Shown: positions 4,394-13,031 of the stretch, piece after piece
Position numbering within the stretch: the stretch's first letter is position 1
How the letters are laid out: each line of letters opens with the position of its first letter
Assembly: GCA_013204045.1 (NCBI GenBank)
Contig: JABMOQ010000057.1
Span: forward strand, 1-41,657
Reading direction: 5' to 3'
Length of the DNA stretch: 41,657 bases
From: Rhodospirillaceae bacterium
GTDB taxonomy: Bacteria; Pseudomonadota; Alphaproteobacteria; Rhodospirillales; JABHCV01
Made by a program: the position numbers and the translations under genes
Notes under the pieces: generated by a model
Told to the model about the DNA's origin: nothing
The model's input: the letters and a program-made list of their open reading frames with translations, nothing else
Database searches by the model: none

Positions 4394-4720
4394 TTAACCG
4401 GTTTTTGCCTGGGCACCGCCGGCGCGAAGCTGTTTCTTCAGGTTTTCAAGGTCCTTGGCCAGGGCACCGACCTCGGCCGAGCCGCCCTCACGATTCATGG
4501 TCGCGGCCTTGACCTTGCCCTCCATCTTTTCAAATTTTTCGCCCATTTTCTTGATCGCGATATTCTGCTCGGCGATGGTTTGCTTGATACCCTTGATATG
4601 GACGTCGATCAGGCGTTGGGTGCGGCCTTCCACTTTCTTGATGGCTTCGGTGGCCATCCACAAGGACGCCAGCCCCACCAGCAAGGCCACAACTGAAATG
4701 ATTGCCGTAATACCGCCCAT
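4394..4720 (-). CDS. Small membrane-anchored coiled-coil protein, function unknown
   Basis: I do not recognise a family. The 108-residue product has one N-terminal membrane helix (about residues 4-24, ITAIISVVALLVGLASLWMA). A long charged helix with heptad-like spacing follows (about 28-75, rich in K, E, I and M), then a second coiled-coil segment (LAKDLENLKKQL) near the C-terminus. The expected topology is one membrane anchor with a soluble oligomerising domain. AGGGG lies about eight bases before the ATG. About 40 bp further upstream TATAAT (minus strand, 4757-4762) could be a -10 element, although no good -35 pairs with it. It is oriented like the DUF1538 cassette and lies 142 bp after its last gene, so it could be a late member of that transcript or an independent gene. 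Confidence 0.65.
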   Translation of the reverse strand: MGGITAIISVVALLVGLASLWMATEAIKKVEGRTQRLIDVHIKGIKQTIAEQNIAIKKMGEKFEKMEGKVKAATMNREGGSAEVGALAKDLENLKKQLRAGGAQAKTG

Positions 4721-4862: not shown

Positions 4863-5267
4863 TTAGTCCGATTCTCCGTGTCGCAACACCATATCGCGCA
4901 AGGTTACGATACCGGACGGGGTCCGCCCCTCGTCGACGACCAGGGCCCGGGAAAGTCCAAATTGCACCAAAAGGCGAACCGCATAACGGATATTCATGTC
5001 CATCGGCACGGTCAGAACCGGCTTGGTCATGATTTCATAAACATTAACCCGATCGGCGGCGCGGCCCTTGGCGATTACCTCGGCGGCGATATCCGAGACC
5101 ACGATCATGCCAAATTCATCCGCTTCGTCCCGGCGCTCGACAATAATGGAACTGACGCCCGAGTCCCGCATCAGGTCAACGGCTTGGGCCACCGTCGCCA
5201 TGCCGGTGATGGTCTTGATCTCGGTCGTCATGATGTCCCTGACGCATATGTTGGTGTGTTCGCTCAT
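4863..5267 (-). CDS. CBS-pair protein of the DUF1538 cassette
   Basis: A 134-residue protein made almost wholly of two CBS motifs. The first runs over about residues 7-68 (VRDIMTTEIKTITGMATVAQAVDLM ... GMIVVSDIAAEVI). The second covers about 75-131 (VYEIMTKPVLTVPMDMNIRYAVRLL ... GIVTLRDMVLRHG). CBS pairs usually bind AMP, ATP, S-adenosylmethionine or cyclic dinucleotides and act as energy sensors. Stand-alone ones often regulate a neighbour. The ATG overlaps the stop of the PII-like gene (ATGA) behind a GGAAGGA ribosome-binding site, so it is made together with the PII-like protein and the two DUF1538 membrane proteins. A role as a nucleotide-responsive regulator of that transporter is inferred from position. 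Confidence 0.85.
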   Translation of the reverse strand: MSEHTNICVRDIMTTEIKTITGMATVAQAVDLMRDSGVSSIIVERRDEADEFGMIVVSDIAAEVIAKGRAADRVNVYEIMTKPVLTVPMDMNIRYAVRLLVQFGLSRALVVDEGRTPSGIVTLRDMVLRHGESD

Positions 5268-5614
5268 ATTCCTTCCTCTATTTCATGCATGATGGTGGGG
5301 GCCTGGGTGGTCATGCCGACGGCATCCTCTATTTCAAACTGAATGGCGATGCCGGCGCCCGGTTCTTCGTCGAATTTCCCGGCCGCCGAGATCGTTTCAA
5401 GAATTTCCCGGGCCTTTGGTTCGGCGACCAGAAACAACACCACATCACGTTGCGCTGTCAGGTCGAGGCCCATAAAAGTTTTCTCCGGCTTCAATCCTTC
5501 GCCGCGAACGCTGGTGATTACCGTGGCGCCGGTGGCGCCGGCCTGGCGGGCGGCGTCAATAATGGCCTCGGTTTTTTCGTCGCTGACAAGAGCCATAATC
5601 ATTTTAAGGTTCAT
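5264..5614 (-). CDS. PII-like signalling protein of the DUF1538 cassette
   Basis: At 116 residues this has the size and fold pattern of the PII superfamily. A first strand MKMIMALV-like segment is followed by a helix (KTEAIIDAARQAGATGATVI) and the glycine turn VRGEG. A third strand RDVVLFLVAE precedes a helix ending AAGKFDEEPGAGIAIQFEIEDAVGM, which matches the GKIGDGKIFV region of GlnB/GlnK. The segment matching the T-loop is short and lacks the tyrosine that GlnB uses for uridylylation, so it is not a classical nitrogen regulator. PII-like proteins commonly bind adenine nucleotides and gate a membrane partner encoded beside them. Both ends overlap neighbouring genes by four bases, which points to the DUF1538 proteins as partners (inference). 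Confidence 0.8.
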   Translation of the reverse strand: MNLKMIMALVSDEKTEAIIDAARQAGATGATVITSVRGEGLKPEKTFMGLDLTAQRDVVLFLVAEPKAREILETISAAGKFDEEPGAGIAIQFEIEDAVGMTTQAPTIMHEIEEGI

Positions 5615-6447
5615 CGTTTTCTCTCTTCCCTGATATCAAGGTTGTGGTCAACAATATCCTCGTCAACGGGTTCCTTTTTTATCATGCGATATTGGATCCA
5701 CCAGTCCGAAAGGGTGGCGAAGCCAAGCACGGCTATTATAGGGAACACGCTGGCGAAGGCGATTAATCCAAATCCGTCAAGCAACGGGCTGCGGCCCGGG
5801 ATAGTCGAGGCCAACCCCAGGCCCAGGGCCGTAACAACCGGAACGGTTACCGTCGATGTGGTCACCCCGCCGGAATCATAGGCGAGCGGAATGATCGTTT
5901 TCGATGCCCGGAAAGTTTGTGCAATTACAATCACATATCCGGCCATTATGTAAAGCGCAAGGGACGTGCCGCTGACAATCCGGTAGGCCCCGAGCGCCAC
6001 GCCGACGGCGACGCCGACGGCCACGGCAATTCTTAAGCCTCTGGCGCTGACGGCGCCGCCGGAGACCTTTTCGGCCTTGATGCCGACGGCGATCAGCGAT
6101 GGCTCGGCAATGGTGGTGGCGAAGCCAATTGCGGCGGCAAAAGCGTAAACCCAGTAATATTCCTGCCACTGACCCTTATATGACGGCCCCGCCGTGGCAT
6201 GGATGAATTCCGGTGCCGTCAACTGCCGGGCCATGGTCTCGCCGATCGGGAACAGGGCCATTTCCAGGCCGACCAGAAACAGGGTCAGGCCGGCCAGCAC
6301 ATAGGCGAACCCAATGGCGATCTTGCCCATATCGGGCGGCCTTTTGCGAATCACCAGAAACTGAAATCCGAACAGGATGGCGGCGATCGGGGCGACGTCA
6401 AGAAGGGTTGCGGCCGCCGTCGTCAGAATATGCACCAGTAGTTCCAT
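5611..6447 (-). CDS. DUF1538 membrane protein, second subunit
   Basis: A 278-residue polytopic membrane protein with about six to seven helices and a short charged C-terminal tail. It carries the DUF1538 signatures G-F-A-T-T-I-A-E-P-S-L (about residues 108-118) and [19 protein letters not shown] (about 190-208), then [11 protein letters not shown]. The upstream protein has the same motifs in the same order, so the pair looks like an ancient duplication that works as a heterodimer. From memory, a DUF1538 pair named UmpAB in Halomonas zincidurans was reported as a Na+(Li+,K+)/H+ antiporter. If this pair is similar it would be a monovalent cation/proton antiporter, but the substrate here is unproven. 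Its ATG overlaps the upstream stop (TGATG). Confidence 0.88.
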   Translation of the reverse strand: MELLVHILTTAAATLLDVAPIAAILFGFQFLVIRKRPPDMGKIAIGFAYVLAGLTLFLVGLEMALFPIGETMARQLTAPEFIHATAGPSYKGQWQEYYWVYAFAAAIGFATTIAEPSLIAVGIKAEKVSGGAVSARGLRIAVAVGVAVGVALGAYRIVSGTSLALYIMAGYVIVIAQTFRASKTIIPLAYDSGGVTTSTVTVPVVTALGLGLASTIPGRSPLLDGFGLIAFASVFPIIAVLGFATLSDWWIQYRMIKKEPVDEDIVDHNLDIREERKR

Positions 6448-7181
6448 CAGACCACCATCCCGAAAACCAGCACGAAAATCATCGGCATCAGGCTGGCGAA
6501 CGCGATCAGGCCAAAACCATCGACCATGGGGTTGCGCCCGCGAATGGTGCTGGCCAGGCCGACACCAAGGGCGGTAACCAGCGGTACGGTAATGGTCGAG
6601 GTCGTGACGCCCCCTGAATCATAAGCGATGCCGACGATCTCCGGCGGCGCCACCGTGGTCAGGACGACGACCAGGCCATAACCGCCGACAATCAGGTAAT
6701 GGATTGGCCATCCTTTGAGGATGCGGAATACCCCCAGCACGAGGGCTACGCCGACAGATAGGGCGACCGTCATGCGCAGGTTGAACGCATAAGACTTCAA
6801 GGCCTCTGGGGTATCGTCGATGTGTCCGGCGCTGCCAGCGACCTGAGCCGCTTCGGCGACGACGGCGATCAGCGCCGGCTCGGCGACCGTGGTGCCAAAC
6901 CCTAAGCAAAAAGAGAAGCCGAGCAGCGCCGTCAGGCTGCCCTTGCGGGCGAAGGCTTCGGCCATGGCCTCGCCAAGGGGAAACAGGCCCAGGTTCAGCC
7001 CCCGGATAAAAAATGACAGCCCGATGACCACCAAGACCAGGCCGGTCAATACTTCGGCCAAGTTGGGAAACGGCTGACGCAGCACGAAAAGCTGAAAGAA
7101 GGCGATGACCAGAATGACCGGCATCAGATCCCGAAGAGAGCCGGAAAAAAATAGCACCAAGTGGCGAAGCGACGTCATCAT
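6447..7181 (-). CDS. DUF1538 membrane protein, first subunit
   Basis: A 244-residue polytopic membrane protein and the first of the DUF1538 pair. Its motifs are [19 protein letters not shown] (about residues 93-111), [20 protein letters not shown] and [18 protein letters not shown] at the C-terminus. Buried acidic residues (E of AEP, D of YDSGG) flanked by small polar residues are what a cation-binding site in a membrane would look like (inference). In many bacteria DUF1538 occurs as one long protein with two halves. Here the halves are separate genes overlapping by one base. Two tandem ATG codons open the gene, with only a modest GGGA ribosome-binding site. A short ORF with a strong ribosome-binding site ends 19 bp upstream and may couple translation. 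Confidence 0.88.
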
Positions 7182-7322: not shown

Positions 7323-7850
7323 ATGTTACGTCATCTCTCTCATCTGGTGCTGGCCATGGTCTTTTTGGCACTGGCTGGACCTGCCGCATCCGATTCTACC
7401 GACTTCGGTGATATCACCATTAGCAATGCCTGGAGCCGGGCATCGGCCGGCATGGCCCGAAATGGCGCCGCCTACCTGACCCTTTCCAGCGCAGGGCCAG
7501 CCGACCGGCTTGTCGCAGCCATGACCCCCATCGCCGGGCGGACCGAACTCCACACACACCTGATGGAGGACGGCATCATGAAGATGCGCCAGGTCCCGGC
7601 TATTGATATTTCCGCCGGGGGGGCCGTCGAACTCAAGCCCGGCGGATTCCACGTGATGATGTTCAAGCTGACTCAGGCCCTGAACGAGGGCGACCACTTT
7701 CCGCTGAAACTGACTTTCGAAAAGGCCGGTTCGGTTACCGTCATGGTGATGGTCGGAAAGGCCGGTGCCATGGATATGGATGGGAATATGAAGGGCATGG
7801 ACCACAGCAACATGGATCACGGCACCATGAACATGCCGGCGAGCCAGTAG
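7323..7850 (+). CDS. Periplasmic copper chaperone, PCu(A)C family
   Basis: A 175-residue exported protein that likely carries Cu(I) to the Cu-A or Cu-B site of cytochrome oxidase or to other copper proteins in the periplasm. A signal peptide covers about residues 1-23 (hydrophobic core LVLAMVFLALAG, then AAS). The PCuAC domain includes NGAAYLTL, then TELHTHLMEDGIMKMR and GGFHVMMF. The H-x-n-M-x-n-HxM arrangement of Cu(I) ligands is thus present. The last 30 residues are a Met/His-rich tail with repeated MDHxxMDH-like units, which probably add metal sites. AAGGA lies nine bases before the ATG. It diverges from the DUF1538 cassette and converges on cbtA with a two-base gap. Confidence 0.9.
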   Translation: MLRHLSHLVLAMVFLALAGPAASDSTDFGDITISNAWSRASAGMARNGAAYLTLSSAGPADRLVAAMTPIAGRTELHTHLMEDGIMKMRQVPAIDISAGGAVELKPGGFHVMMFKLTQALNEGDHFPLKLTFEKAGSVTVMVMVGKAGAMDMDGNMKGMDHSNMDHGTMNMPASQ

Positions 7851-7852
7851 GA

Positions 7853-8536
7853 TCAGCCCCTGTCGCCGTCACCCATGCGGCCATATAGATAGCCGGCGGC
7901 GCTGCCGAGTAGCAGCCAAAACAGCCCGGCAATGACCAGTGCGCCGAAAGCAAAATCGCTCGCCAGTTCGGCCGGCACGACGCCGCCAGATTCGACCGGA
8001 TGCGGGGCCCCGTAGATGTGGGGCAAGGCCAGCAGGGCCACGCCGACGGCCCTGATCGGGACCCGGTGGGCGAAGGCGATCAACGCCAGACCGCCCGCCG
8101 TCGCCGTCGCCGTCAGCAGCCACCAGGCCTGTCGGTCGAACAAGTCGGCCCGCATGGTGCCGGGAACCTCGGGCGGCAGGCCGACGGCAGGCGCCAGCGA
8201 GAACGCCGCATATCCGGCCAGCCCCCACAGCGCCCCCAGCCGCCAGTCCATAGTCCCGCCCCTGAGCGCGAAACCGGCGACCAGTAACAAGCCAAAGCCC
8301 GACGCGATGATGATGTTGGCAAGCACGGTCAGGGCCGTGCGCTCGACCCCGGCGTGGGGCGTCGCGCCATGGTCGTGCATTTCACCGCCGCCATGATCGT
8401 GCATGGAAAGCGTGCCCATTTCATAACGTTCGGCCTGCATCAACATCGGCACCAGACGTTGCGACTGGGCCAGCGATGCGAACAGCCCGGCGACCACCCC
8501 GGCGACCAGTGCCAAGGTGAATATTCGTTTCAACAT
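7853..8536 (-). CDS. cbtA: CbtA family cobalt transporter, membrane subunit
   Basis: A 227-residue membrane protein with about five helices, matching CbtA, the larger subunit of a predicted cobalt importer found under B12 riboswitches. The N-terminus LKRIFTLALVAGVVAGLFASLAQ is typical of the family. A histidine-rich loop MHDHGGGEMHDHG (about residues 45-57) after the first helix probably binds metal, and ALPHIYGAPHP adds more histidines. It follows cbtB by 17 bp with only a poor ribosome-binding site, so it may depend on cbtB translation. Cobalt as substrate rests on comparative genomics of the family and on the upstream riboswitch, not on a direct test. Confidence 0.9.
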   Translation of the reverse strand: MLKRIFTLALVAGVVAGLFASLAQSQRLVPMLMQAERYEMGTLSMHDHGGGEMHDHGATPHAGVERTALTVLANIIIASGFGLLLVAGFALRGGTMDWRLGALWGLAGYAAFSLAPAVGLPPEVPGTMRADLFDRQAWWLLTATATAGGLALIAFAHRVPIRAVGVALLALPHIYGAPHPVESGGVVPAELASDFAFGALVIAGLFWLLLGSAAGYLYGRMGDGDRG

Positions 8537-9054: not shown

Positions 9055-9071
9055 TCATCAATGACTATAAT
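9044..9071 (+). promoter_or_regulatory. Predicted chvI promoter
   Basis: A -35 TTGGGG (9044-9049) and a perfect -10 TATAAT (9066-9071) are separated by 16 bp. Transcription would start near 9078, about 70 bp before the chvI ATG. The -10 overlaps the -10 of the opposite-facing cbtB promoter. The -35 is only fair. Confidence 0.45.
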
Positions 9072-9093
9072 TCTGCCACAAATGCCGCGTCAA
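9064..9093 (-). promoter_or_regulatory. Predicted promoter of the riboswitch-cbtBA transcript
   Basis: On the minus strand a -35 TTGACG (9088-9093) and a -10 TATAGT (9064-9069) are 18 bp apart. The expected start, near 9057, is only a few bases before the first aptamer block at 9053, which supports the call. The -10 overlaps the chvI -10 on the other strand by four bases. Confidence 0.55.
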
Positions 9094-9147
9094 TTGCCGA
9101 TACGCCTATTTGTGGCCCAAAACCGATATTTTTTACGGATTGCCCCC

Positions 9148-9837
9148 ATGACCCACACCATTGCCCTTGTCGATGACGACCGAAATATCCTGACATCCGT
9201 CTCCATGGCCCTGGAAGACGAAGGCTTTCACGTCGATACCTACACGGACGGGGTGCAAGCCCTGGAAGGGCTTTCCCTCAAGCCTGCCGACCTGGCCGTT
9301 CTCGACATCAAGATGCCGCGCATGGACGGCATGGAACTGCTGCAAAAAATTCGCGACAAATCCAGCATGCCTGTGATTTTCCTGACCTCCAAGGATGACG
9401 AGATCGACGAGGTGCTCGGCCTGCGTCTGGGTGCCGACGATTACATCACCAAGCCGTTTTCCCAACGCCTGCTGATTGAGCGTATCAACACTATCTTGAG
9501 GCGCACCGAGCCGGCCCGCGAAGGCGATGAAATGAACATGCTGAAACGGGGCGACCTGGTCATGGACCCGATCCGCCATAAGTGCACATGGCGAGATAAG
9601 GAAGTGATCCTGACGGTCACCGAGTTTTTATTGTTGCAGGCGCTGGCCAAAAACCCGGGCCATGTTAAAAATCGCGACCAGTTGATCGACGCCGCCTACG
9701 GTGAAAATATCTATGTGGACGATCGCACCATCGACAGCCACATCAAGCGCGTGCGCAAAAAATTCCGGGGCGACGATAAAGAGTTCGATCAGATTGAAAC
9801 CCTATACGGCATTGGCTATCGCTATCGCGGGGACTAA
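9148..9837 (+). CDS. chvI: Response regulator, ChvI family
   Basis: A 229-residue OmpR-type transcription factor. The receiver domain (about 1-120) has the acidic pair DDD (9-11), the phospho-acceptor Asp53 in [13 protein letters not shown], the Thr of FLTSKDDE and Lys of TKPFSQ. A winged-helix DNA-binding domain follows, ending in [16 protein letters not shown] and GIGYRYRGD. The start [19 protein letters not shown] is the conserved ChvI beginning, so ATG 9148 is preferred over the longer frame from 9061. With ChvG it forms the ChvG-ChvI (ExoS-ChvI) system, which responds to acid and envelope stress in rhizobia and Agrobacterium and there affects pckA. chvG begins three bases downstream. Confidence 0.95.
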
Positions 9838-9840
9838 AGC

Positions 9841-11436
9841 ATGACGCCAGACCACGCCCGCCACCTTCGCTGGATACCGTCGTCGCCCATCCTTAGGCGC
9901 ATCTTGGCGATCAACGTGCTGGCCCTGGGCATCCTGGTCGCCGGTCTTATGTACCATGACCAGTACCGGGAAAGCCTGGTCGAATCAGAGTTGGCGGGCC
10001 TGAGCGTGCACGCCGAAATTATTGCTGCCGCCCTCGGCGAAAGCGCCATTGAGAACGCCGTGACCGGCGAGCAATTATTACGCCCGAGCCACGCCTTGCA
10101 AATGGTGCGCAGATTGGTCGAGACGACCGGCGGACGGGCCAGGCTGTTTGCCCCGGACGGCATATTGATCGCCGATTCCCTTAGCATAAGCGCCAGCGGA
10201 AGCCATGTGCAAAGCGTCGAGCTGCCAGCCCCCGATAGCGTCGAAGACAAGACCCGGGGTCTGCTCAATGTCATTCTCGATGCCTACGAATGGTTGATTC
10301 GATTGTTTCCCGGCGGCGGCGATATGCCGCCCTATCTTGAAGGCCGGGTACAACGCGCCAGCGACTATGGCGAGGTCGTCTCGGCCCTGTACGAGAAACC
10401 ACTGGACGGTATCCGCCGTACCGACAATGGCGGCATGATGCTGATCACAGCGGTTCCGGTAAAACGCTACAAGCAGGTGCTCGGTGCACTGATGCTGTCC
10501 AGGGGCTCGGACGATATCGAGGCAGCGTTGCGCGAGGTGCGCGTTGACATATTGCGGGTCTTCGGCATCGCCCTCGCGGTGACTATCATGCTGTCGCTGT
10601 ATCTGGCCAGCACCATCGCCCGGCCCATTCGCCTGCTGGCAGAGGCCGCCGAAAGGGTTCGCCACGGTCATCACCGCCAGCACGCCATACCCGACCTTGA
10701 CGACCGTAACGATGAAATCGGCGAACTGGCCAGCGCCCTGAAAGAAATGACCGAGGCGTTATGGGCCCGAATGGATGCCATTGAAAGCTTCGCCGCCGAC
10801 GTATCGCATGAAATAAAAAACCCACTCACATCCCTGAAAAGCGCCGTCGAAACCGCATCACGGATCACCGATCCGGAACAGCAACGCAAATTGATGGATA
10901 TTATTCTGGATGATGTTCATCGCATGGACCGGCTGATCAGTGATATTTCTGATGCCTCCAGGCTCGACGCGGAACTGTCCCGGGCCGAGATGTCCCAGGT
11001 TGATCTTAAGGCCCTTCTTTCGTCGCTGATTGAGGCCAATAGCAACGCATCGGGTCTGTCCATAAACCTTAAGGCCGAGGGGGAATTTATCGTTAACGGC
11101 ATTGAAAGCCGCCTTGGTCAGGTTTTCGCCAACCTTCTTAATAATGCCGTCTCGTTCAGCCCGCCTGATAGCAAGGTGTCCATTTATATGACCGGCGACG
11201 ATAAAGCCATATCCATCATTGTAGATGACGAAGGGCCCGGCATTCCGGCAGGCAAGCTTGACGCCATCTTCGAGCGCTTCTACTCGTCGCGTCCCGAAAG
11301 TGAAAAATTCGGCACCCATTCCGGGTTGGGCCTTAGCATTTCCAAACTGATCGTTGAGGCCCACGAAGGCTCAATCCGGGCCGAAAAAAACAGTGCCATG
11401 GGGGCGCGCTTCATTGTTGATCTACCCCGCAGTTGA
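9841..11436 (+). CDS. chvG: Sensor histidine kinase, ChvG family
   Basis: A 531-residue membrane sensor paired with ChvI. One membrane helix (about residues 20-38) and a second (about 241-260) frame a periplasmic sensing domain of some 200 residues. HAMP follows, then HisKA with the phospho-accepting His323 in FAADVSHEIKNPLTSLKSA. The HATPase domain has the N-box QVFANLLNNAVSFSPP, DDEGPGIP and HSGLGLSISK. Rhizobial ChvG/ExoS is repressed in the periplasm by ExoR, but no exoR is seen here. The gene lies three bases after chvI, and hprK follows 31 bp after its stop. This order matches the known alphaproteobacterial arrangement and connects envelope stress sensing with the PTS relay. Confidence 0.95.
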   Translation: MTPDHARHLRWIPSSPILRRILAINVLALGILVAGLMYHDQYRESLVESELAGLSVHAEIIAAALGESAIENAVTGEQLLRPSHALQMVRRLVETTGGRARLFAPDGILIADSLSISASGSHVQSVELPAPDSVEDKTRGLLNVILDAYEWLIRLFPGGGDMPPYLEGRVQRASDYGEVVSALYEKPLDGIRRTDNGGMMLITAVPVKRYKQVLGALMLSRGSDDIEAALREVRVDILRVFGIALAVTIMLSLYLASTIARPIRLLAEAAERVRHGHHRQHAIPDLDDRNDEIGELASALKEMTEALWARMDAIESFAADVSHEIKNPLTSLKSAVETASRITDPEQQRKLMDIILDDVHRMDRLISDISDASRLDAELSRAEMSQVDLKALLSSLIEANSNASGLSINLKAEGEFIVNGIESRLGQVFANLLNNAVSFSPPDSKVSIYMTGDDKAISIIVDDEGPGIPAGKLDAIFERFYSSRPESEKFGTHSGLGLSISKLIVEAHEGSIRAEKNSAMGARFIVDLPRS

Positions 11437-11467
11437 CTCTCGGGCCCGGCGGTTCCACCCTTCATTT

Positions 11468-11917
11468 ATGAGCAATAATACACCTGAAAAAATTCACGGC
11501 ACCTGCGTCGAAGTCGAGGGCATGGGCGTGCTATTGCGTGGACCTTCGGGCAGCGGCAAATCGGATTTGGCATTGCGCCTGATGGATGACGGGGCGCGCC
11601 TGATCGCCGATGATTATACGGAGGTCGCCGCAGACGGCGAAAAACTGTTGGCCAGTGCGCCTGAAAATATTCATGGCCTGATAGAGGTGCGCGGCGTCGG
11701 TGTGTTGCAGACCGATGCCGCCGTCAGGGCCGAACTCGGGGTCGTTATCGATCTGGTTGCGGCCAAGGATATTGACCGCCTGCCCGAAGACAAAACCACC
11801 GATTTGATCGGAACCTCCATCCCGTACTTCCGGCTGGCGGCTTTCGAGGCTTCGGCCCCGGCCAAGGTGCGATTTATTGTCCGCCGGGTTAAAGGCGACA
11901 TCATTCACGTTCCTTAA
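11468..11917 (+). CDS. hprK: HPr kinase/phosphorylase, short alphaproteobacterial form
   Basis: A 149-residue protein with only the catalytic domain of HprK and without the N-terminal domain of Firmicutes enzymes. This is normal in alphaproteobacteria. The Walker A motif GPSGSGKSD is at residues 25-33 and LIADDY at 45-50. The family signature, HGLIEVRGVGVLQ, is near 77-89, and IPYFRL comes near the C-terminus. It phosphorylates, and with phosphate dephosphorylates, a serine of HPr, whose gene lies 830 bp downstream with the matching Ser52. The ATG at 11468 is chosen because the family homology begins with IHGTCVEVEG and the upstream in-frame codons lie inside chvG. Confidence 0.94.
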   Translation: MSNNTPEKIHGTCVEVEGMGVLLRGPSGSGKSDLALRLMDDGARLIADDYTEVAADGEKLLASAPENIHGLIEVRGVGVLQTDAAVRAELGVVIDLVAAKDIDRLPEDKTTDLIGTSIPYFRLAAFEASAPAKVRFIVRRVKGDIIHVP

Positions 11918-11932
11918 GCTGCGGAGTGTCTA

Positions 11933-12316
11933 TTGAGCGATAAAATGAGCATTTCAGTGGTCTCTTTCTCCTATAAAAAGGGACTGCCGGGCGAATCGGA
12001 TCTGGTATTTGACGTTCGCTTTCTGAACAATCCGCACTATGATCCGCAGCTACAATCGTTGTCAGGCCGGGATGCGGCGGTTGCTGAATTCATAACCGGG
12101 GATGCTGAATTTACTGTTTTTTTTAATGGCCTGACAAAAATGCTGGAGCCCCTGTTGCCGCGCTATGCGGACAAGGGCAAAAGCCACCTGACCATCGCCT
12201 GTGGTTGTACAGGCGGGCGTCACCGTTCAGTCTTCGTCGCCGAAAGGTTGACTCAATGGCTGAAAGATAAAGGACAGCCAGTGCAACTTCTACACAGGGA
12301 TCTGGACGAGACATGA
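11933..12316 (+). CDS. Stand-alone RapZ C-terminal domain protein
   Basis: A 127-residue protein matching only the C-terminal half of RapZ (YvcJ/YhbJ). It contains VVSFSYKKGLP, DLVFDVRFLNNPHY and the diagnostic GCTGGRHRSV (91-100) followed by VAERL. Full RapZ is about 280-300 residues and has an N-terminal P-loop domain, completely absent here; only 15 bp separate this gene from hprK. In E. coli the C-terminal domain binds the sRNA GlmZ and senses glucosamine-6-phosphate to recruit RNase E. Whether it acts alone here is unknown. A TTG start at 11933 is preferred because GGAG lies six bases before it. The next ATG (11945) has no properly placed site. It sits between hprK and the EIIA gene, the usual place of rapZ. 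Confidence 0.85.
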   Translation: MSDKMSISVVSFSYKKGLPGESDLVFDVRFLNNPHYDPQLQSLSGRDAAVAEFITGDAEFTVFFNGLTKMLEPLLPRYADKGKSHLTIACGCTGGRHRSVFVAERLTQWLKDKGQPVQLLHRDLDET

Positions 12317-12329
12317 GGGGCTTAAGAAT

Positions 12330-12737
12330 ATGATTGGAATGGTACTGGTCACTCACGGGCGCTTGGCCGACGAACTGGTTTCGGCGCTTGAGCATGTGGT
12401 CGGCCCGCAGGAACATACAAAAACCGTCTGCATCGGCGCAGACGACGACATGGAGCAGCGGCGTAAAGATATACTAGAAAGTATCGCCGACGTCGAACAG
12501 GGCAAGGGCGTTATCCTGCTCACCGATATGTTCGGCGGAACGCCGTCAAACCTGGCCATATCGGTCATCGATAAAGCCAACGTCGAAGTCATCGCCGGGG
12601 TCAACCTGCCGATGCTGATCAAGTTGGCCAGTGTCCGCAAGGATGAGCCCTTGATGCAGGCCGCAACCAGCGCCCAGGACGCGGGCCGCAAGTATATCAA
12701 CATCGCCTCTCAGCTTCTGAGCCAGGAACAGACTTGA
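12330..12737 (+). CDS. PTS EIIA component, mannose family
   Basis: A 135-residue EIIA domain of the mannose type. The phospho-accepting His9 lies in MVLVTHGRLADELVSALE. LLTDMFGGTPSNLAIS and the core VIAGVNLPMLIKLA are also family hallmarks. In alphaproteobacteria this protein (called ManX, PtsM or EIIA-Man) is not attached to a sugar permease. It ends a regulatory phosphorelay EI to HPr to EIIA. No EIIB, EIIC or EIID is seen in the window, in line with a regulatory role. GAGGGG lies ten bases before the ATG. The HPr gene follows after nine bases. Confidence 0.93.
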   Translation: MIGMVLVTHGRLADELVSALEHVVGPQEHTKTVCIGADDDMEQRRKDILESIADVEQGKGVILLTDMFGGTPSNLAISVIDKANVEVIAGVNLPMLIKLASVRKDEPLMQAATSAQDAGRKYINIASQLLSQEQT

Positions 12738-12746
12738 TCCGATCAT

Positions 12747-13031
12747 ATGCCCCTTAAGGCCCTAACACATTCCCGGGTTGTCACCATACTTAACCAGCGC
12801 GGACTGCATGCCCGCGCCGCCGCCAGGTTCGTCAAAACGGCCGGGGAATTTAAATCCGACATCGCGGTTTGCCGTAACGGCCAGACAGTTTCCGGCTTGT
12901 CGATCATGGGCCTGATGATGCTGGCCGCTGGCATCGGCAGCGAAATCGAAATCACTTGTTCGGGGGCCGACGCCGAAACGGCCATGCAGGCGCTGGCCGA
13001 TATGATCGCCAATAAATTCGAGGAAGAATAA
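12747..13031 (+). CDS. ptsH: Phosphocarrier protein HPr
   Basis: A 94-residue HPr. His21 in QRGLHARAAARFVK is the site phosphorylated by EI. Ser52 in VSGLSIMGLMMLAAG is the equivalent of Ser46, the HprK target. It carries phosphate from EI to the EIIA encoded upstream and integrates the HprK serine signal. The ribosome-binding site is weak and the gene is probably read through from the EIIA gene. The TAA stop overlaps the ATG of ptsI by one base (TAATG), so HPr and EI are co-translated. Confidence 0.95.
   Translation: MPLKALTHSRVVTILNQRGLHARAAARFVKTAGEFKSDIAVCRNGQTVSGLSIMGLMMLAAGIGSEIEITCSGADAETAMQALADMIANKFEEE

Follow-up and report, generated by a model that had tools for sequence, protein, structure and literature searches.

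Two pairs of a PII-superfamily protein and a membrane transporter were met in this work, AmtB-GlnK and SbtA-SbtB, and in the latter the T-loop of SbtB is described as entering the transporter SbtA (PMC8352866). A membrane protein pair of the DUF1538 family, UmpAB of Halomonas zhaodongensis, is reported to perform Na+(Li+,K+)/H+ antiport and to make E. coli KNabc tolerant of Na+ and Li+; its subunits are given seven transmembrane segments each and were found to form a UmpA-UmpB heterodimer by co-immunoprecipitation (PMC5484666). In the account of the main text, none of the genes on the 4.2-kb umpAB clone is described as PII or CBS; that text mentions neither PII, P-II nor CBS, and likewise no word in topolog-, inverted or antiparallel (PMC5484666). 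Here we describe four overlapping genes of a Rhodospirillaceae bacterium that join a UmpAB-like DUF1538 pair to a PII-like protein and a protein with a pair of CBS domains. They lie on a contig of 41,657 nucleotides (JABMOQ010000057.1, assembly GCA_013204045.1), all of which is called the window below. We lean towards reading them as a PII-partnered cation/proton antiporter operon in which a PII-like plug gates the transporter from its cytoplasmic side, often together with a second sensor. The genes and their junctions are as follows.

6447..7181, minus strand: umpA-like gene, DUF1538 membrane protein of 244 amino acids, predicted N-terminus in and C-terminus out (Pfam, NCBIfam, structure model and charge bias)
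5611..6447, minus strand: umpB-like gene, DUF1538 membrane protein of 278 amino acids with a hydrophilic C-terminal tail, predicted N-terminus out and C-terminus in (NCBIfam and charge bias)
5264..5614, minus strand: PII-like gene, 116 amino acids, PII fold, shortened T-loop, without equivalents of the canonical K90, R101 and R38
4863..5267, minus strand: CBS-pair gene, 134 amino acids, nearest solved relative CBS-CP12, T-x-x-D in the second CBS domain and not in the first
6447..6447, minus strand: 1-base overlap of umpA stop and umpB start, TGATG (open reading frame list and junction sequence)
5611..5614, minus strand: 4-base overlap of umpB and the PII-like gene, ATGA (open reading frame list and junction sequence)
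5264..5267, minus strand: 4-base overlap of the PII-like and CBS genes, ATGA (open reading frame list and junction sequence; conserved in other loci)

The minus-strand reading frames and the junction sequences agree with the overlaps of 1, 4 and 4 bases that the original prediction had given. Its family assignments were borne out by Pfam, where every protein scored above the cut-off: 227.3 bits for the UmpA-like and 219.5 bits for the UmpB-like protein with DUF1538 (PF07556, gathering cut-off 22.6), 38.7 bits with P-II (cut-off 25) and 71.6 bits with CBS (cut-off 24), the last in two stretches and hence two CBS domains. The membrane pair had also been likened to UmpAB, and NCBIfam ranks the right subunit first each time. 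The 244-residue protein reaches 373.7 bits with UmpA (NF041627, cut-off 490) and 182.4 with UmpB, the 278-residue protein 322.5 bits with UmpB (NF041628, cut-off 500) and 191.8 with UmpA. By these scores the two proteins are homologous subunits and not certified equivalogs. A promoter scan returned 2 sites versus 1.9 in shuffled sequence, with none upstream of umpA.

To see how constant this gene arrangement is, we turned to other genomes; their loci and genomes are given L and G numbers where they must be told apart. Of 398 Pseudomonadota genomes sampled, 126 have DUF1538, the window's own among them, and at least one DUF1538 place was examined from each of the other 125, with further copies in some genomes left out. 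The 95 loci of a first set, 33 loci from lower-scoring genomes and ten more (L336-L345) that belong to a divergent fused class comprise 141 DUF1538 clusters, of which 125 had room, defined as at least 1400 bases downstream of the cluster. A PII-like gene is adjacent in 119 of these 125 clusters and a CBS gene is present in 63, and in the locus sets surveyed we found no CBS gene without PII. The PII-like gene is thus a near-constant partner of DUF1538 and the CBS gene an optional one. The original prediction would have been refuted had the two small genes not been linked to DUF1538 in other genomes; the survey shows that they are, and the four genes form a single conserved unit.

The sets differ in composition. 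Among the 98 clusters of the first set, 91 have room; PII lies directly downstream in 86 of these and CBS is found in 59, and the PII gene that precedes the DUF1538 pair at L045 raises the PII total to 87. In the second set, where some DUF1538 matches are fragments, 24 clusters have room (22 with PII, 4 with CBS), and all ten loci of the third carry PII and none CBS. Nine of the 16 clusters without room show PII, six run out at, or close to, the end of their contig before a PII gene could follow, and L357 shows none. The best 80 loci of all GTDB contigs, which are the nearest relatives and stem partly from the same genomes, include 72 with room (PII in 72, CBS in 70); of the eight left out for want of room, five show PII and three end before its position. 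Colwellia and Methylophaga are among the genera that carry the module. Where both small genes are present (134 loci within L033-L132 and L142-L216), the CBS start overlaps the PII end by exactly 4 bases in 115. The 2.68 Mb of the window's own genome contain three genes of the P-II family, the other two standing beside a glutamine synthetase gene and an ammonium transporter gene. Since P-II genes are this sparse and the adjacency recurs in 119 of 125 clusters, the grouping of DUF1538, PII and CBS is far from chance.

The linkage extends beyond Pseudomonadota. DUF1538 was found in 7 of 148 genomes of the phylum of L078 (Desulfobacula), 17 of 201 of that of L114 (Chloroflexi) and 8 of 148 of that of L125 (Nitrospirota). 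In clusters with room PII is adjacent in 5/5, 15/15 and 6/7, respectively, and CBS is present in 2, 10 and 5 of the same clusters. The four-base overlap of PII and CBS is kept in 10 of 17 cases outside Pseudomonadota. At L335:1832-2923 the DUF1538 domain breaks off and the frame runs on into unrelated sequence. Plasmids carry the module too: of nine DUF1538 matches six were examined (two alphaproteobacterial, four clostridial), with PII in 6/6 and CBS in 0/6. In the four clostridial loci both DUF1538 domains reside in one protein of about 500 amino acids, followed by a protein of 217-224 amino acids with two PII-like units; the halves of three of these tandem proteins were aligned with the PII-like family.

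These clostridial relatives touch on another way of reading the small proteins. Cyclic di-AMP acts on K+ transport through PII-like PstA/DarA and through CBS proteins. PstA is a described receptor of this nucleotide (PMC4316997), and the window's proteins might likewise be cyclic-di-AMP receptors, a PstA/DarA-like PII and a CbpB-like CBS protein, that control ion transport as in Gram-positives. The host genome, 98.7% complete, contains no DAC domain (PF02457), a domain present in 11 of 14 control genomes, which makes control by cyclic di-AMP unlikely in this host; the CbpB model, whose cut-off is 125 bits, moreover gives 21.6. We regard this explanation as highly improbable.

The second sensor varies. 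A second PII-like gene accompanies 6 of the ten L336-L345 loci, 9/24 clusters of the second set and 1/91 of the first, counted with one profile at E 1e-3, which misses diverged copies. L310 and L311 each encode a single sensor protein that contains three PII-like stretches, of which the first is very weak. At L328 the PII-like domain is naturally fused to the transporter (DUF1538-DUF1538-PII, residues 630-731, independent E value 2.2e-11 with our own profile) and shares 42% identity with the neighbouring PII gene product (BLASTP). Overall, DUF1538 has PII as its near-constant partner, to which a second sensor, CBS or a further PII, may or may not be added. Several single loci show arrangements of their own. 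Three consecutive DUF1538 genes precede PII and CBS at L330:4772-7764 (minus strand); at L045:3496-7687 a fused DUF1538 gene and its PII and CBS genes are followed immediately by another PII and a separate DUF1538 pair; and a second PII-like gene of the same family lies on the other strand, 3.5 kb from the DUF1538 pair, at L047:11766-12128. In L348, L350, L351 and L352 a divergent reading frame of about 440-460 amino acids, by eye putatively voltage-gated potassium channel-like, stands beside a fused DUF1538 gene of a divergent class, and a putative diverged PII-like frame follows the PII gene. Two unlike DUF1538 systems lie side by side at L204:4130-11640 and L216:5241-9853, the second being a fusion with a long N-terminal part, and each system has its own PII-like gene.

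The last of these arrangements bears on whether the small proteins act on the transporter at all. PII proteins often have several targets, and the PII-like and CBS proteins might be co-expressed with UmpAB while acting on some other enzyme or regulator, co-transcription merely matching their expression. G121 would fit this, as it has two paralogous clusters, one without PII (L165) and one with it (L166). Set against it are the provision of second systems with a PII of their own at L204 and L216, the PII fusion at L328 and the near-constancy of PII adjacency, whereas the three window neighbours that were tested are not conserved. Of the loci searched, just 2 match the 108-amino-acid gene at 4394-4720 and just 1 each the genes for PCu(A)C and CbtA, so all three fall outside the module. 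Action on a separate target consequently appears improbable to us, and regulation of the membrane pair itself is the reading that we pursue.

The PII-like protein was modelled with a predicted local distance difference test (pLDDT) score of 84.2 overall and of about 62 in the T-loop. Foldseek matched the model to GlnK (E 1.5e-6) and to GlnK of the AmtB-GlnK complex, 2ns1_B (E 2.5e-6, template modelling score 0.62), and the best VIA-align match was 1hwu_F (Z 12.7, root-mean-square deviation 3.3, 90 residues aligned). By profile and modelled fold the protein belongs to the PII superfamily. We aligned 78 family sequences with GlnB and GlnK of the window's own genome and compared K90, R101, R103 and R38, which we take to be the canonical PII ATP-phosphate residues. 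K90 is replaced by I, V, M or L, R101 by G and R38 by non-R residues in 78/78 each, and R103 is kept in only 4/78. Y51 is also absent from 78/78, and the T-loop, in which F47 and G49 are invariant, is about five residues shorter than in GlnB and GlnK of the same genome. The equivalents of T29, G37 and G89 are kept in all 78 sequences and that of G87 in 77. Because K90, R101 and R38 are replaced throughout, canonical ATP/ADP/2-oxoglutarate sensing is unlikely.

The same replacements would suit a PII-like protein that binds no ligand and serves UmpAB as a constitutive subunit or assembly factor, leaving sensing to the CBS protein alone, and the absence of CBS from many clusters would then suggest that sensing is dispensable. 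This fits poorly with the antiport reported for UmpAB alone (PMC5484666) and with the retained T29, G37, G87 and G89 equivalents. Furthermore, the PII-like SbtB is reported to bind AMP in the corresponding cleft, which shows that AMP binding is possible at such a site (PMC8352866). We consider a purely structural role doubtful; by analogy with SbtB, the PII-like protein may possibly bind AMP or another ligand.

The nearest solved relative of the CBS-pair protein is CBS-CP12 (5nmu; E 6.8e-21, 38% identity over 121 columns). The adenosyl site of CBS domains has the signature S/T-x-x-D. Among 138 sequences the second CBS domain has S/T in 119 and D in 98, and the first has D in 128 and T in only 18. 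Our best guess from these counts is a single adenosyl site, most likely for AMP, which CBS-CP12 is stated to bind in a review (PMC9406205). Of the two nucleotide sensors originally proposed, the CBS protein is at best the one that stands, and the PII-like protein has lost the canonical residues.

We next considered the membrane pair. Lysine and arginine favour the N-terminus and loops 2, 4 and 6 of UmpA, with a positive difference in 150/150 sequences, and loops 1, 3, 5 and the C-terminus of UmpB, with a negative difference in 150/150; the 150 UmpA and 150 UmpB sequences are related and do not represent 150 independent events. Without the tails the bias is kept in 149/150 UmpA (1 zero) and 124/150 UmpB sequences (26 zero). 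Fused proteins repeat it within one chain, the first halves being positive in 27/27 and the second halves negative in 27/27; one of the 28 long DUF1538 reading frames was left out, as its two domains were not separable. Positively charged residues mark the cytoplasmic side of membrane proteins (positive-inside rule). Taken with this rule, the opposite charge bias argues for UmpA with its N-terminus in and C-terminus out, UmpB with the reverse, and a predicted antiparallel UmpA-UmpB heterodimer, which is the strongest new point that we infer here. The transmembrane count of the window pair is likewise inferred from the helices of the UmpA model and the charge bias. This model (pLDDT 90.4) has helix breaks at residues 99-102 and 192-198, near the invariant E101 and D188.

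Attempts to place the UmpA fold in a family failed. Foldseek against the PDB gave no match with E < 0.96, and in VIA-align the top Z was 5.4, a level shared by phycobiliproteins and other helical bundles, so that no family was assigned. MgtE, a Mg2+ channel solved with ATP, was among these rows (Z 5.2 and 4.9, 96 residues aligned), tied with unrelated ones and was not used. SbtA is absent from the fold matches, which excludes nothing. Searches of DUF1538 against the PDB by sequence returned one chance match (E 0.93) and a profile search none, and an internal repeat within the domain was discarded after comparing its N- and C-terminal halves with hhalign (E 0.14).

Our preferred interpretation, the PII-gated cation/proton antiporter, draws on the antiport report for UmpAB, on the GlnK-AmtB and SbtB-SbtA precedents and on a 2026 paper in which DUF1538 appears alongside Mrp and K+ transporters in a list of genes that matter for predicting growth pH (PMC13255231). 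In this mechanism UmpA and UmpB would insert in opposite orientations, and the resulting antiparallel heterodimer would exchange Na+(Li+,K+) for H+. By analogy with PII, the PII-like protein would be a trimer; it would dock at the cytoplasmic face, where its T-loop probably enters the transporter and throttles it, in the manner of GlnK on AmtB and of SbtB on SbtA. An accessory sensing role would fall to the CBS protein, whose ligand is most likely AMP or another adenosyl compound and which may tune the PII-like protein or the cytoplasmic tail of UmpB. Antiport would thereby be matched to energy or ion status. As UmpAB is reported active from a fragment without a described PII or CBS gene, the small proteins would be modulators and not parts of the pump. 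The reported assay ran without them, and gating is thus directly testable.

Several points weigh against this interpretation. PII is unrecognised in six of the 125 clusters (L165, L200, L202, L215, L375 and L361), of which L375 is a DUF1538 fragment only and L361 has a PII-like start after the pair that is not fully readable; L357, with 1180 bases downstream and hence outside the count, also lacks it, as does L335, which has room and is the only miss in the samples of the other phyla. CBS is missing from 62/125 clusters. The L328 fusion is one unreplicated case (of 61 genomes searched around its host G686, that genome alone has DUF1538) and its PII domain escapes Pfam, which also makes no call above cut-off in the three-unit proteins of L310 and L311 and calls only the second half of the one clostridial tandem protein tested (L133). 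Model confidence is lowest in the T-loop, whose window of residues 37-56 comes 19th among 97 in conservation and is thus not exceptional as a whole. The fold offers no argument for docking, since the UmpA model has no convincing PDB match. Finally, UmpA and UmpB of the window score under the NCBIfam equivalog cut-offs, and antiport by DUF1538 proteins was shown in a single paper.

The last two points also speak for a PII/CBS-regulated transporter whose natural substrate is another cation or a small anion, antiport in KNabc being a side activity or specific to Halomonas. The known PII-transporter pairs move ammonium (AmtB) or bicarbonate (SbtA), and DUF1538 is also found on large clostridial replicons. 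On the other hand, E101 and D188, both acidic and invariant, lie at or next to helix breaks, which suits cation/H+ exchange, and DUF1538 is grouped with Mrp and K+ transporters in the growth-pH study (PMC13255231). We rate a different substrate as unlikely, while giving it more weight than any other alternative to PII-gated cation/proton antiport.

A copper chaperone PCu(A)C gene divergent from umpA, followed by a CbtA-type cobalt transporter gene on the opposite strand, occupies 7323-8536 of the window, and among the loci searched both were matched only in L054. Further on, at 9061-13031, a two-component system, a short HPr-kinase-like protein and EIIA-like and HPr-like genes stand in a row that presumably represents the usual alphaproteobacterial cluster.

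That regulation of DUF1538 by PII and CBS proteins is undescribed, as the original prediction supposed, agrees with our search: we found no published description of such partners in the open-access literature, where DUF1538 is named in 5 of 5.39 million papers, subscription papers being mostly outside its scope. The data describe a real, widespread and apparently undescribed PII-partnered module on another transporter family. DUF1538 would be a widespread third beside AmtB and SbtA. More tentatively, it may be a third PII-clamped transporter family, an antiparallel heterodimeric antiporter with an interchangeable second sensor (AMP-type CBS, a second PII or tandem PIIs), in which the PII-like plug ties the sodium/proton cycle to energy charge across several phyla. 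To our knowledge DUF1538 systems would be the first cation/proton antiporters clamped by a PII-superfamily protein. If so, PII-type plugs would be a general switch for membrane transport, and DUF1538 proteins, an antiporter family linked to pH and salt tolerance, would gain a regulatory logic.

How does the locus compare with the systems described so far? A lead to Borrelia BB0017 was dropped, as it concerned DUF2179 and not DUF1538. Like the window, UmpAB of H. zhaodongensis has adjacent paralogous DUF1538 genes with a one-base overlap, the identical subunit order and a UmpB with a hydrophilic C-terminal tail; it differs in that the window proteins stay below the equivalog cut-offs built for that family. 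CBS-CP12 shares the CBS pair and the common Y77-E78 and K82-P83 with the window protein, which has V in the first CBS domain where CBS-CP12 has T. In addition, CBS-CP12 has a CP12 domain and acts on phosphoribulokinase (PMC9406205). SbtA-SbtB resembles the window in encoding a PII-like protein together with a transporter. GlnK-AmtB likewise has a PII-superfamily gene adjoining a membrane transporter gene and the PII fold, and its layout, GlnK plus ammonium transporter, is found in the window's own genome as well. In contrast to that system, the DUF1538 module uses a transporter of another Pfam family, a PII-like protein without Y51 and the ATP-phosphate residues and with a T-loop about five residues shorter than that of GlnK, and often adds a CBS protein.

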